In this document: piece after piece, positions 5,322 to 8,532 of the stretch | Layout: the number at the start of each line of letters is the position of its first letter | How positions within the stretch are numbered: the first letter of the stretch is position 1 | Program-made: the position numbers and the translations under genes | Origin: Prevotella sp. | GTDB taxonomy: Bacteria; Bacteroidota; Bacteroidia; Bacteroidales; Bacteroidaceae | Assembly (NCBI GenBank): GCA_017618275.1 | Contig: JAFZUS010000200.1 | Coordinates: 1 to 57,557 of the forward strand | Direction of reading: 5' to 3' | Length of the DNA: 57,557 bases | The notes under the pieces: model-generated | What the model saw: only the letters and a program-made list of their open reading frames with translations | Told to the model about the DNA's origin: nothing | The model's database searches: none

Positions 5322-5351
5322 AACTCTCAACTCTACACTCTCAACTCTCAA
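5322..5351. repeat. Short-word array filling the DUF59-lpxH gap
   Basis: On the minus strand the whole 30-bp gap between the DUF59 TAG stop and the lpxH ATG is built from the words TTGAGAGT and GTAGAG (TTGAGAG, TTGAGAG, TGTAGAG, TTGAGAG). It has the same word family as the arms of the four-helix cassette at 6424-6931. Confidence 0.8.
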
Positions 5352-5695: not shown

Positions 5696-5726
5696 CAAAG
5701 GTACTTAATAATCTTCAAATAACAAA
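5696..5726 (-). promoter_or_regulatory. Promoter of the DUF59-lpxH-kdgK unit
   Basis: Minus strand: -33 TTTG at 5723-5726 and -7 TACCTTTG at 5696-5703, separated by 19 bp, an almost ideal Bacteroidota sigma-ABfr promoter. The -7 box ends 23 bp before the DUF59 ATG. Confidence 0.75.
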
Positions 5727-5748
5727 GGAAAACGTAGAAAAAGTACCG

Positions 5749-6489
5749 TCAGCATCTGCCTAACTCATGGTAGGAGTAGTACAGGCCGTCGGTGATGATG
5801 ACGTGATCCATGAAGTGGATGTGCATCAGTTCACAGGCTCGTTTGATGTCCCTGGTCAGTCCGTCGTCGGCTTTGCTGGGCGAGAGGTTGCCTGAAGGGT
5901 GGTTGTGGCAGACGGCGAGGATAGTGGCATTGACCAGCACAGCCTCGCGGATGATGATACGGATGTCGACGGCTGTCTCCGTGATGCCACCGTGGGAGAT
6001 GCGTATTTTCTTGATGAGACGGTAGTTCTGGTTGAGCAGTAGCACCCAGAACTCCTCCACATCGAGGTCCTGCATCTGCGGGTGCATCTCATTGTATATC
6101 TTAGTGGCAGTATCCAGTTTGGGACGTTCTTCGGGTGATTCTTGCTGACGGCGCTTACCGAGTTCACAGGCAGCGAGGATGGTGATGGCCTTGGCCTCGC
6201 CAATGCCTTTATACTGGCAGAGGTCGCGGATGGTCATCTTTCCGAGGGTGTTGAGGCTGTTGTTGCAGTCGTTCAACACCTCCTGCATCAGTTCAACGGC
6301 ACTCGTGCCTGGTGTGCCAGAGCCAATGAGTATAGCCAGCAACTCGGCATTGCTGAGTGTCTGTGGACCTTTGTCACGCAGTTTCTCACGCGGTTGGTCG
6401 TCTTCTGACCATTGGCATATTGTTAGTTTAGAATTTAGAGTGTAGAGTGTAGAGTCTGCTACCGCTCTTGTGTCTTTATTGTTTTTCAT
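5749..6489 (-). CDS. radC: RadC-family JAB-domain protein
   Basis: This protein has 246 residues. After residue 24 it follows the RadC pattern: EDDQPREKLRDKGPQTLSN (helical N-domain with helix-hairpin-helix, 'YKGIGEAKAITILAA') and then the JAB/MPN metalloprotease-like domain with CHNHPSGNLSPSKAD and FMDHVIITD. RadC proteins are linked to DNA repair or competence, but their reaction is unsettled. The first 23 residues (MKNNKDTRAVADSTLYTLNS...) are atypical: they are encoded by the left arm of the repeat that bounds the four-helix gene. Its ATG overlaps the stop of that gene (ATGA), so translation is probably coupled. The native start may have been displaced; I see no better in-frame ATG before the conserved part. 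Confidence 0.88.
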   Translation of the reverse strand: MKNNKDTRAVADSTLYTLNSKLTICQWSEDDQPREKLRDKGPQTLSNAELLAILIGSGTPGTSAVELMQEVLNDCNNSLNTLGKMTIRDLCQYKGIGEAKAITILAACELGKRRQQESPEERPKLDTATKIYNEMHPQMQDLDVEEFWVLLLNQNYRLIKKIRISHGGITETAVDIRIIIREAVLVNATILAVCHNHPSGNLSPSKADDGLTRDIKRACELMHIHFMDHVIITDGLYYSYHELGRC

Positions 6490-6931
6490 ATTTGTTTTGT
6501 TTTTAATTTCATAGTCTTGATAGAACTCACAAGTATCTTGATGATTTCTTCATTGTCTTTTTGTAATGATAAGTATCCCTTATCGTCGATGAATTTGGCA
6601 GAGTAAAGGTTTTTGAGCCAGTATTCTGTTTCATTTGCTTCTTTAAGGGCTATACTTAGTTTGTTGATAAAATCAGCATTGCTTTGAGCATTAATACTCT
6701 CTGCTACGTTTGCACCGATACTGGTACCACTCCGATATATCTGTTTTGACATGATAGTTTCGGAATATTCTTTTATTAAGTACTGATACAACTTAATAAT
6801 ACGACTTGCAAAGTGTTCTGTTTTGTTTTTTAATATACTCTCTTTCCTTGGCATAGTACTATGATTTAATGGTAGATGGTGTTTTGGAGAGCGGTAGCAA
6901 ACTCTACACTCTCCATTCTACACTCTCAACT
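6424..6931 (-). mobile_element. Repeat-bounded cassette carrying a four-helix-bundle gene
   Basis: The four-helix gene is enclosed by inverted repeats. The left arm has core 6450-6468 and the right arm has core 6888-6906 (AGAGCGGTAGCAAACTCTA); the cores pair at 18 of 19 positions. Outside each core lies an array of short words (ACTCTACACTCT, with CCATTCT or AAATTCT variants) reaching about 6424 and 6931, which extends the possible stem across the gene. The insert is visibly more AT-rich than its neighbours. The left arm is translated as the start of RadC; the right arm contains the TGA stop of the glycosyltransferase. I see no transposase. Mobility is an inference from structure, base composition and the solo copy at 7631-7677. 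Confidence 0.6.
6486..6854 (-). CDS. Four-helix-bundle protein (S23/Avd-like)
   Basis: This 122-residue helical protein matches the four-helix-bundle family that includes proteins encoded in 23S rRNA intervening sequences and the Avd accessory proteins of diversity-generating retroelements. Visible features are the basic N-terminus, FASRIIKLYQYL, the conserved turn QIYRSGTSIGANVAES (about 59-74), KLSIALKEANETEYWL (about 85-100) and a Lys-rich last helix. These proteins form oligomeric barrels and are thought to bind nucleic acid; the exact role of stand-alone copies is unknown. There is no reverse transcriptase or template repeat nearby, so this is not a DGR. The gene is much more AT-rich than its neighbours, lies between inverted repeats, and its TGA overlaps the radC ATG. 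Confidence 0.88.
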   Translation of the reverse strand: MPRKESILKNKTEHFASRIIKLYQYLIKEYSETIMSKQIYRSGTSIGANVAESINAQSNADFINKLSIALKEANETEYWLKNLYSAKFIDDKGYLSLQKDNEEIIKILVSSIKTMKLKTKQI

Positions 6932-7966
6932 ATAAAAGTTTTTTTCGAAGGCTTGGAATTCGTCTTGTTTGAGGACGCACCGTTTCCACCAGGACTCGAT
7001 GAAGCCGAGGCCGTAGCCCATCAGTTGTACGAAGGCTGCAGGGATGGAGAGCAGGCCTACCCAGAGGCTGCGGTTGCGTATGCTGGAGTCGACGAAGATG
7101 ATGAGGGAATAGAATAAGATAGGTATCCAAGGGGCGAAGCACATCCAATAGAACTGATCGCGGTCGACGTAGTGCATCAATGCCCGTCCAACGGCAGAGA
7201 TCAGGATCAGGCCGATGACACCGACGGTGAAGACGGTAGGCAACAGATGGACGAGTTTCAGAGTGCCGGGATGTCGCTTGGTCAGGTTGATGCGGGCAAT
7301 GCCGCTATTATAGACTTGGCGGAAGAACTTTCGGAAGTCCGTGCGCCGTTTGTGCCATACCCATGCCTCAGGAAAGAGTCTGGTCTTGTGGCCAGCCTCC
7401 ACGATGCGGTAGGAGAAGTCGATGTCCTCGCCGAAGCGCATCTTGGAAAAACCGCCCAGTTGGTGATAGACATCGCGACGGATGCCCATGTTAAAGGAAC
7501 GGGGGAAGAACTTGTCGAGTTTGGCCTTTCCGCCTCGGATGCCCCCTGTGGTAAAGAAGGAGGTCATGGAATAGGAGATGGCCTTCTGTATAGGGGTAAA
7601 GGAAGGATGGGCAGCGTCGGGGCCGCCAAAGGCGGTAGCAAACTCTCCATTCTTCATTCTCCACTCTACATTCTCAAGATAGCCCTCGGGCAGGACGACA
7701 TCGCTGTCAAGGATGATAAGCCATTCGCCGTTGGCGCGTTCAGCACCGTAGTTACGGCTCTGGCCTGGTCCGCTGTTCTCCTTGGCGTAATAATGCAAAG
7801 CAAGGATGTCTGCGTATTTGTCGCAAACATCCTTGCAGGGCTTTACCGATCCGTCCTCCACAATGATGACTTCGAAATCCTTTAGTGTTTGATTAGACAG
7901 GCTTTCGAGTAGTTCGTCCACTTCATCGGGACGATTATATACAGGAACGATAATGGAGTATTTCAT
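6926..7966 (-). CDS. Membrane-anchored family 2 glycosyltransferase
   Basis: This 346-residue GT-A enzyme starts SIIVPVYNRPDEVDELLESL, with VIIVEDGS, the metal-binding LDSDVVLPEGYL (DxD) and FGEDIDFSYRI (ED motif). Two or three hydrophobic segments follow (about 232-255, 268-290, 297-320), so it probably works on a lipid-linked or surface glycan at the inner membrane. It overlaps efp by one base (TAATG). Between the DxD strand and FGGPDAAHPSFTP, residues about 97-112 (NVEWRMKNGEFATA) are encoded by a solo copy of the local repeat. Its TGA stop lies in the right arm of the four-helix cassette. The acceptor is unknown. Confidence 0.88.
   Translation of the reverse strand: MKYSIIVPVYNRPDEVDELLESLSNQTLKDFEVIIVEDGSVKPCKDVCDKYADILALHYYAKENSGPGQSRNYGAERANGEWLIILDSDVVLPEGYLENVEWRMKNGEFATAFGGPDAAHPSFTPIQKAISYSMTSFFTTGGIRGGKAKLDKFFPRSFNMGIRRDVYHQLGGFSKMRFGEDIDFSYRIVEAGHKTRLFPEAWVWHKRRTDFRKFFRQVYNSGIARINLTKRHPGTLKLVHLLPTVFTVGVIGLILISAVGRALMHYVDRDQFYWMCFAPWIPILFYSLIIFVDSSIRNRSLWVGLLSIPAAFVQLMGYGLGFIESWWKRCVLKQDEFQAFEKNFYS
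7631..7677 (+). repeat. Solo copy of the cassette repeat inside a coding sequence
   Basis: GCGGTAGCAAACTCT (7632-7646) is identical to 6891-6905 and is followed by words of the same kind (CCATTCT, TCATTCT, CCACTCT, ACATTCT). It is in frame within the glycosyltransferase gene and is translated on the opposite strand. It has no gene or second arm. Confidence 0.75.
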
Positions 7967-8532
7967 TACTCTTTCACGCGCTGCAGATAACTGCCGTCAC
8001 GGGTATCCACCTGAATGAGGTCGCCCTCGTTGATGAACAGGGGAACGCGTACCTCTACGCCTGTCTCCAGTGTGGCGGGCTTCAGGGTGTTGGTGGCAGT
8101 GTCGCCCTTCACACCAGGCTCAGAATGCGTCACGCGGAGTACGGTCTTGACGGGCATTTCTGCGTACAGGATAGTACCGTCGGTGGTGTCGGAAACAACC
8201 TCCACGATATCACTCTCCTTCATATACTCATGACCGATGACGAGTTCATTGTCGATGGGAATCTGCTCGAATGTCTCCTGATTCATAAAGATACGTCCGC
8301 TCTGGTCCTCATAGAGATACTGGTAGGGACGACGCTCGATGACTACGTCCTCGAGTTTCTCACCGATGTTGAAACGACGCTCCAGAACACGACCGTCGGA
8401 AACGTTCTTTACCTTGATAATCATAATGGTGTTACCCTTGCCTGGCTTTCTGTGCTGGAAATCGATGCACACCCAAATGCTACCGTCCATGCGGATGGCG
8501 GTGCCTTTTTTAATGTCTTGTGAATTAATCAT
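7966..8532 (-). CDS. efp: Translation elongation factor P
   Basis: At 188 residues this is the usual EF-P length. It binds between the ribosomal P and E sites and relieves stalling at proline runs. The N-terminal KOW-like domain carries the tip loop FQHRKPGKGNT (25-35), with Lys32 at the position modified in other EF-Ps. The middle OB domain includes ERRPYQYLYEDQSGRIFMNQETFEQ, and the C-terminal domain ends VPLFINEGDLIQVDTRDGSYLQRVKE, matching the EF-P signature. No EpmA/EpmB-type modification gene is visible here. It is the first gene of efp-glycosyltransferase-four-helix-radC and diverges from rpmH. Confidence 0.97.
   Translation of the reverse strand: MINSQDIKKGTAIRMDGSIWVCIDFQHRKPGKGNTIMIIKVKNVSDGRVLERRFNIGEKLEDVVIERRPYQYLYEDQSGRIFMNQETFEQIPIDNELVIGHEYMKESDIVEVVSDTTDGTILYAEMPVKTVLRVTHSEPGVKGDTATNTLKPATLETGVEVRVPLFINEGDLIQVDTRDGSYLQRVKE

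Follow-up and report, generated by a model that had tools for sequence, protein, structure and literature searches.

A heptad-armed hairpin cassette carrying an S23 gene between protein-coding genes of Prevotella sp.: a probable intervening-sequence-like element outside rRNA

The intervening sequences (IVSs) of 23S rRNA lie in rRNA helices and fragment the rRNA, whereas the S23 gene considered here is found between two protein-coding genes, one for a glycosyltransferase (GT) and one for RadC. The question is what kind of element this gene belongs to. The locus is part of a 57,557-nucleotide stretch of Prevotella sp. DNA (assembly GCA_017618275.1, contig JAFZUS010000200.1, positions 1 to 57,557), referred to below as the window. 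The function and origin of both IVSs and S23 proteins have been described as unclear (PMC4990558).

Positions 6424-6932 are one copy of a widespread cassette consisting of a left arm, an S23 gene and a right arm. The S23 gene (122 codons, 6486-6854, minus strand) matched PF05635 (E 1.1e-24, profile search) and TIGR02436, the 23S-intervening-sequence protein (E 4.6e-29). In the operon sense it is preceded on the GT side by the left arm (6888-6932, minus strand; AGAGTGT-type heptads and core TTTGCTACCGC) and followed on the RadC side by the right arm (6424-6468, minus strand; core GCGGTAGCAGA and ACTCTAC-type heptads). The arms are 45 nt each, 87% complementary and spaced by 419 nt; each has its tandem heptads on the outer side and its core (TTTGCTACCGC / GCGGTAGCAAA) on the inner side. 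The four-helix gene between inverted arms reported in a preliminary description of this DNA is therefore confirmed by both the family matches and the arms. The core gave three matches in the window at up to three mismatches (0.02 expected) and ACTCTACACTCT gave six at up to one mismatch (0.30 expected).

The cassette is fused to both neighbours, as had also been proposed. The stop codon TGA of the GT gene (6926-7966, minus strand; PF00535) lies at 6926-6928 (minus strand) within the first heptad of the left arm. On the other side, the S23 stop overlaps the start of the RadC ORF as ATGA (6486-6489, minus strand; ORFs 6486-6854 and 5749-6489). The radC frame (5749-6489, minus strand) enters from the cassette, continues through the right arm and matches its family from residue 24 on; radC of cassette-free relatives starts at its own ATG. 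The suggestion that the arms could pair across the gene agreed with an RNA folding run over 6415-6940 (minus strand), in which the predicted structure (-130.1 kcal/mol, z -7.5, equalled by 0 of 100 shuffles) had its stem closed by the arms. Rfam gave no match at E ≤ 1 in window positions 5700-8000, with no rRNA and no group I or group II intron RNA.

The AlphaFold model of the window S23 protein is a four-helix bundle (pLDDT 94.8). Its closest solved structure is 2rld (55-57% identity), the S23 protein BT_0352 of Bacteroides thetaiotaomicron annotated as of unknown function, followed by 2gsc. Avd of diversity-generating retroelements (PDB 4dwl and 8ub7) has a four-helix-bundle fold in common with S23 (TM about 0.73-0.75 and 13-14% identity, at Foldseek E values from 0.13 upward); no reverse-transcriptase gene was found among the ORFs adjoining the window S23 locus. 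Comparison of coding sequences gave a median dN/dS of 0.107 (40 pairs with dS < 1.5, among 388 pairs more than 70% identical), which establishes that the protein is under strong purifying selection. The ORF of the Coxiella IVS differs in this respect: reductive evolution has been described for it, and S23p is thought not to be expressed there (PMC4990558).

For a wider sample, 221 HMM hits were reduced to 198 unique S23 loci, 194 of which had at least 100 nt on either side. Inverted arms were present at 172 of these 194 loci at a score of at least 15 (2 of 3880 composition shuffles). This proportion should not be taken as an unbiased estimate for S23 genes at large, since 80 of the loci represent the closest among 484 relatives and a single genus supplied many of the rest. 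At a score of at least 18 the count was 155 of 194 (0 of 3880 shuffles), and 22 loci fell below 15. In the first set, 75 of 85 S23 genes were armed; for the other ORFs at those loci the count was 8 of 285. Among 20 further viral and plasmid loci, which include the near duplicates L367/L368 and L377/L378, 18 scored at least 17.5 and two had no arms. The genome containing the window has six PF05635 genes above the cut-off, and the five with both flanks on the contig all lie between inverted arrays (scores 27.5-33), the word being different in each; two PF05635 matches under the cut-off are left out of this count. Record titles, some of them of metagenome bins and possibly misassigned, place the S23 loci in Bacteroidota, Campylobacterota, Ignavibacteria, Candidatus Brocadia and Oscillospiraceae, and further S23 records in Cyanobacteriota, Spirochaetota and Chloroflexota. 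No Rfam match was obtained in 20 other S23 loci.

Periods, arm pairing and stop counts were computed on the 155 loci with a score of at least 18. The best arm period was 7 in 113 loci, 8 in 30, 9 in six, 10 in four and 12 in two. Stem mismatches read on the transcribed strand comprised 136 G-U and 164 A-C; G-U is not in excess and the arms are therefore not visibly constrained by RNA pairing. The idea that arm words are designed to close every frame in the left arm and leave all of them open in the right arm was dropped, since periodicity and composition explain most of the effect. It was striking against random shuffles and was mostly gone against column-permuted words (heptads 0.735 versus 0.643, sd 0.039; nothing clear for the right arm).

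The cassette lies with the transcription of its neighbours, as gene directions establish. Both neighbours point the same way as S23 at 147 of 184 loci, both the opposite way at two, and they are mixed at 35. At the GTDB loci, 63 of 76 S23 genes are of the (+,+) kind and one of 76 is (-,-), compared with 217 and 24 of 326 for other genes. The stop of the upstream gene and the outer edge of the arm are separated by a median of 1 nt (n = 130). Downstream, 43 of 133 loci have the first in-frame ATG of the following gene ahead of the point where the right arm ends, and 55 of 133 have it no more than 15 nt past that point. On cyanobacterial and Chloroflexota plasmids (L377, L378, L382, L374, L379) S23 was also seen within defence-like operons, running from a DISARM-type helicase to a methyltransferase or from DUF1156 to Swt1/HEPN.

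Arms and S23 gene behave as one evolutionary unit that occurs at unrelated sites; several sequence comparisons demonstrate this. Left arms pair with their own right arms at a median score of 26.5 and with the arms of other loci at 5.5. The arm word varies with the S23 clade, and arm similarity increases with S23 identity even where the neighbours are non-homologous; for such loci it was 0.261, against 0.222 after permutation (sd 0.005, maximum of 300 permutations 0.236). In 105 alignments between loci with non-homologous neighbours, similarity reached more than 20 nt beyond the left arm in 1.9% and beyond the right arm in 5.7%; L064 and L092, for example, are 86% identical over 419 nt and have different flanks. 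A tree built from 34 S23 proteins shows one change of arm core type and five changes of site. The junctions GT-radC and sufT-lpxH each host cassettes with core A (GGTAGCAAACTCT) and with core B, from separate S23 clades. Seven Flavobacteriaceae S23 loci align across both flanks and are old positional orthologues.

Occupancy of the GT-radC junction was compared in the 30 best radC loci (radC was present in 135 of 150 genomes), 29 of which had GT beside radC. With the own genome included, six of the 29 carry the cassette and 23 do not, in keeping with the proposed insertion between co-transcribed genes; in several of the cassette-free genomes GT and radC overlap as ATGA. An S23 gene without arms at this site, which according to the preliminary description would speak against the proposal, was not encountered among ten cassettes placed at the radC junction: each has an arm core on at least one side. 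At the sufT-lpxH junction, 12 of 30 loci held both genes. Two contain the cassette (L166, L167), four solo heptad or octad arms or half a hairpin (window 5322-5351, L146, L147, L152), two other repeat words (L161, L162) and two short unclassified gaps (L148, L158), and two are bare (L144, L159). In the window itself, heptad matches show four solo heptads of the left-arm type in the gap that separates the stop of the sufT-like gene from the ATG of lpxH (5322-5351, minus strand), probably the scar of another, lost cassette. The words in L161 and L162 are CACGGATT and ACGTTAT, and L154 encodes the peptide LTPGPSPRGE in a loop of the GT; these repeats may represent the arms of additional S23 clades or belong to different elements. 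On a single contig of another genome (L318, G065:C42), S23 cassettes occupy the radC, lpxH and ddl junctions inside about 8 kb.

Arms also occur apart from the gene. The core was found at 24 sites in the own genome at up to one mismatch, and 22 of these do not belong to this cassette. Fifteen of the 22 have a partner arm (score at least 14) and make up 11 distinct hairpins with loops of 14-41 nt; the others are single arms or, as L032, perhaps chance. All 22 lie inside stop-free frames of at least 197 amino acids, and each of the eight host frames tested against Pfam is a real gene. These eight encode NAD-dependent DNA ligase (ligA), RsmF, RecG, a Mur ligase, M50 and M16 peptidases, a P-type ATPase and an alpha-L-fucosidase; gene-free hairpins are thus present in frame within ligA, recG and other genes. 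Three hairpins (L018-L020, on C118) are in what is apparently a single rsmF frame. In the window, core and heptad matches mark a solo arm in frame inside the GT gene (7632-7675, minus strand), within a loop of the protein (LENVEWRMKNGEFATA); relatives have other heptad, octad or repeat-like peptides in the same loop. According to the preliminary description, the insertion proposal would suffer if arms were mostly gene-free and no empty-site polymorphism existed. The first is the case for these core sites; the polymorphism, on the other hand, exists.

Copies of a core appear to go with the matching S23. Cores A and B were defined after inspection of the loci, with the S23 core type read for the best match of 30 genomes and counts entered by hand, and the following Fisher tests are thus post hoc: at least four core-A copies in 8 of 8 genomes with a core-A best S23 match versus 8 of 142 others (2e-9), and at least three core-B copies in 5 of 6 genomes with core-B S23 versus 7 of 144 others (8e-6). 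This co-occurrence of hairpins and S23 is suggestive, because it reduces to three supported phylogenetically independent pairs, over which it is not significant. One genome that is 81% complete (G145) has 16 core-A and 10 core-B copies, two PF05635 matches and no match to the window S23 at E ≤ 1e-30.

These observations bear on a different reading, which we consider unlikely, in which the heptad arrays form a dispersed repeat in their own right (palindromic, MITE-like or born by slippage), spreading by themselves, and S23 genes are passengers between two arrays. The 22 of 24 core sites lacking an S23 gene would fit it, as would the several kinds of solo arrays that relatives have between sufT and lpxH and in one loop of the GT, and the hairpins of G145 where no close S23 was found. 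Against it stand the matched inverted pairs around 172 of 194 S23 loci and a word that tracks the S23 clade at unrelated sites, with its single core change on the S23 tree.

Plasmids gave two footprints. In Nostoc sp. C052 plasmid pC052_A (L372), a 431 bp cassette with a perfect 39 nt inverted repeat occupies the place where six of seven sibling regions share the same 197 bp (L389 being too diverged to read); the right flank is 99.8% identical to that of pC052_D and the left flank 90.7%. The perfect inverted repeat of L372 includes TTTG, which is present in the right flank of the empty relatives, and the end of the left arm may therefore be a fold-back copy of host flank. Three Nostoc plasmids have a cassette (466 bp in L373) that interrupts the gene for a DNA cytosine methyltransferase. 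Alignment of two of them (L373, L393) places the cassette where nucleotides 189-516 (328 bp) of the methyltransferase gene would be, and the gene is intact in two relatives. Neither footprint has a target-site duplication. The intact methyltransferase relatives contain a single copy of the word CAATTCG no more than 15 nt from the left junction; the 197 bp footprint has no 7-mer match. The comparisons thus demonstrate that the cassette site is polymorphic and that, in two plasmid families, it stands in place of 197 or 328 bp of older DNA without target duplication.

The interrupted methyltransferase gene in three plasmids argues against S23 being a normal operon gene of long standing, with a flanking hairpin that acts in the processing or stability of the mRNA and with vertical inheritance and losses behind the differences among genomes, as does the occurrence of one S23 clade at unrelated sites and of different clades at one site. 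Such residence would account for the strong purifying selection and the co-directional neighbours, and the Flavobacteriaceae positional orthologues fit the order gmk, four-helix gene, nadD reported for two F. columnare genomes (PMC5524665); as a general account we regard it as quite unlikely.

Movement by a partner enzyme was considered in two forms. Retro-mobility through a reverse transcriptase in trans, with S23 as an Avd-like partner, would accord with the resemblance to Avd (TM about 0.73-0.75, at a Foldseek E of 0.13 and above) and with the sense orientation of the cassette in transcripts. It appears very unlikely: 79 of 150 genomes of the genus, drafts in which absence is not certain, gave no RVT_1 match at E ≤ 0.001, and these include five of the eight core-A genomes (G023, G065, G079, G121 and G129, also drafts). 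Similarly improbable is the movement of hairpins in trans by a RAYT- or IS200-type Y1/HUH transposase. The palindromes and the lack of target duplication would fit it, as would the detection of PF01797 in 88 of 150 genomes (with one match in the own genome, E 6.5e-13); against it, PF01797 gave no match in the other 62, among them core-A G023, G129 and G163 and the S23-rich G008. Neither enzyme is supported as a constant companion, 79 of the 150 genomes being without an RVT_1 match and 62 without one to PF01797.

Among known systems the 23S IVS is the closest in build. In Coxiella burnetii it likewise holds an S23 ORF within a long hairpin, in sense to the host transcript and with inverted ends; tandem heptameric repeats are reported next to the ORF in its 5' region, the first of them having an RNase III site, and it is termed a selfish element of unclear origin (PMC4990558). 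The cassettes differ from it in their conserved protein, clade-specific words and gene-free hairpins in coding genes. They are called IVS-like here because a location outside rRNA fails the defining feature of an IVS. The Coxiella heptameric repeats adjoining an S23 ORF are an independent hint that IVSs and cassettes perhaps form one family (PMC4990558), and the 23S IVSs are likely to be rRNA-resident relatives of the cassettes. The earlier suggestion of a new class is tempered to that extent.

Rickettsia palindromic elements are similar in being short in-frame palindromes in unrelated housekeeping genes; they are about 150 bp, whereas the hairpins here are about 100 nt by eye and share their heptad arms with the S23 cassette (PMC10969869). 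The BrickBuilt MITE of Porphyromonas gingivalis is also of Bacteroidales and has tandem units and inverted ends, but its unit is 23 nt, it is always intergenic and the abstract describing it mentions no S23 gene (PMC4596501). The arms of Nostocales S23 cassettes consist of heptads. Cyanobacterial heptanucleotide STRRs are likewise tandem heptads, and no paper connecting them with S23 was found in the open-access literature. A search of open-access PMC (preprints excluded) also found no paper in which S23 genes of protein operons are connected with heptad arms.

Taken from sequence comparison, the armed S23 cassette is probably an IVS-like, transposase-free hairpin element outside rRNA, and it is quite likely mobile. 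No mobility enzyme for it was found, and movement itself is read from comparison. The cassette would persist because it is nearly harmless within a transcript: the upstream gene would end at the left arm and the downstream gene restart inside the right arm or directly behind it, and the hairpin might be cleavable by RNase III, by analogy with the IVS literature. The S23 protein, expected to be a pentamer with an Avd-like fold, would recognise its cognate hairpin, in the form of RNA or of single-stranded DNA, and help the copying or annealing of the hairpin into new places; that S23 acts on its own arms we put at an even chance. The repeated short word would supply many registers of microhomology, and the hairpins without S23 that lie in coding genes would have arisen from the cassette by spread in trans. 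Microhomology-guided replacement is favoured because of these many registers and of CAATTCG near the methyltransferase junction, which is weak evidence, being one case beside another footprint with no 7-mer match; insertion through microhomology or template switch is a doubtful step, on balance somewhat improbable.

In its fullest form the proposal is a tentative one, which we think possible rather than probable. It would describe a transposase-free class of elements, in at least Bacteroidota, Cyanobacteriota, Campylobacterota, Spirochaetota and Chloroflexota, whose sole gene encodes an S23 protein that recognises its own clade-specific heptad hairpin. By microhomology-guided target replacement, operons would receive copies of the whole cassette and reading frames copies of the hairpin without the gene. 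The 23S IVSs would be rRNA-resident members of the class, and many short tandem repeats scattered in the genomes of Bacteroidota and cyanobacteria would be footprints of it. Most of the S23 genes sampled lie in heptad-armed hairpin cassettes of protein operons, which gives the S23 family a mobile-element context, and the cassettes tie the family to dispersed short tandem repeats and in-frame palindromes.
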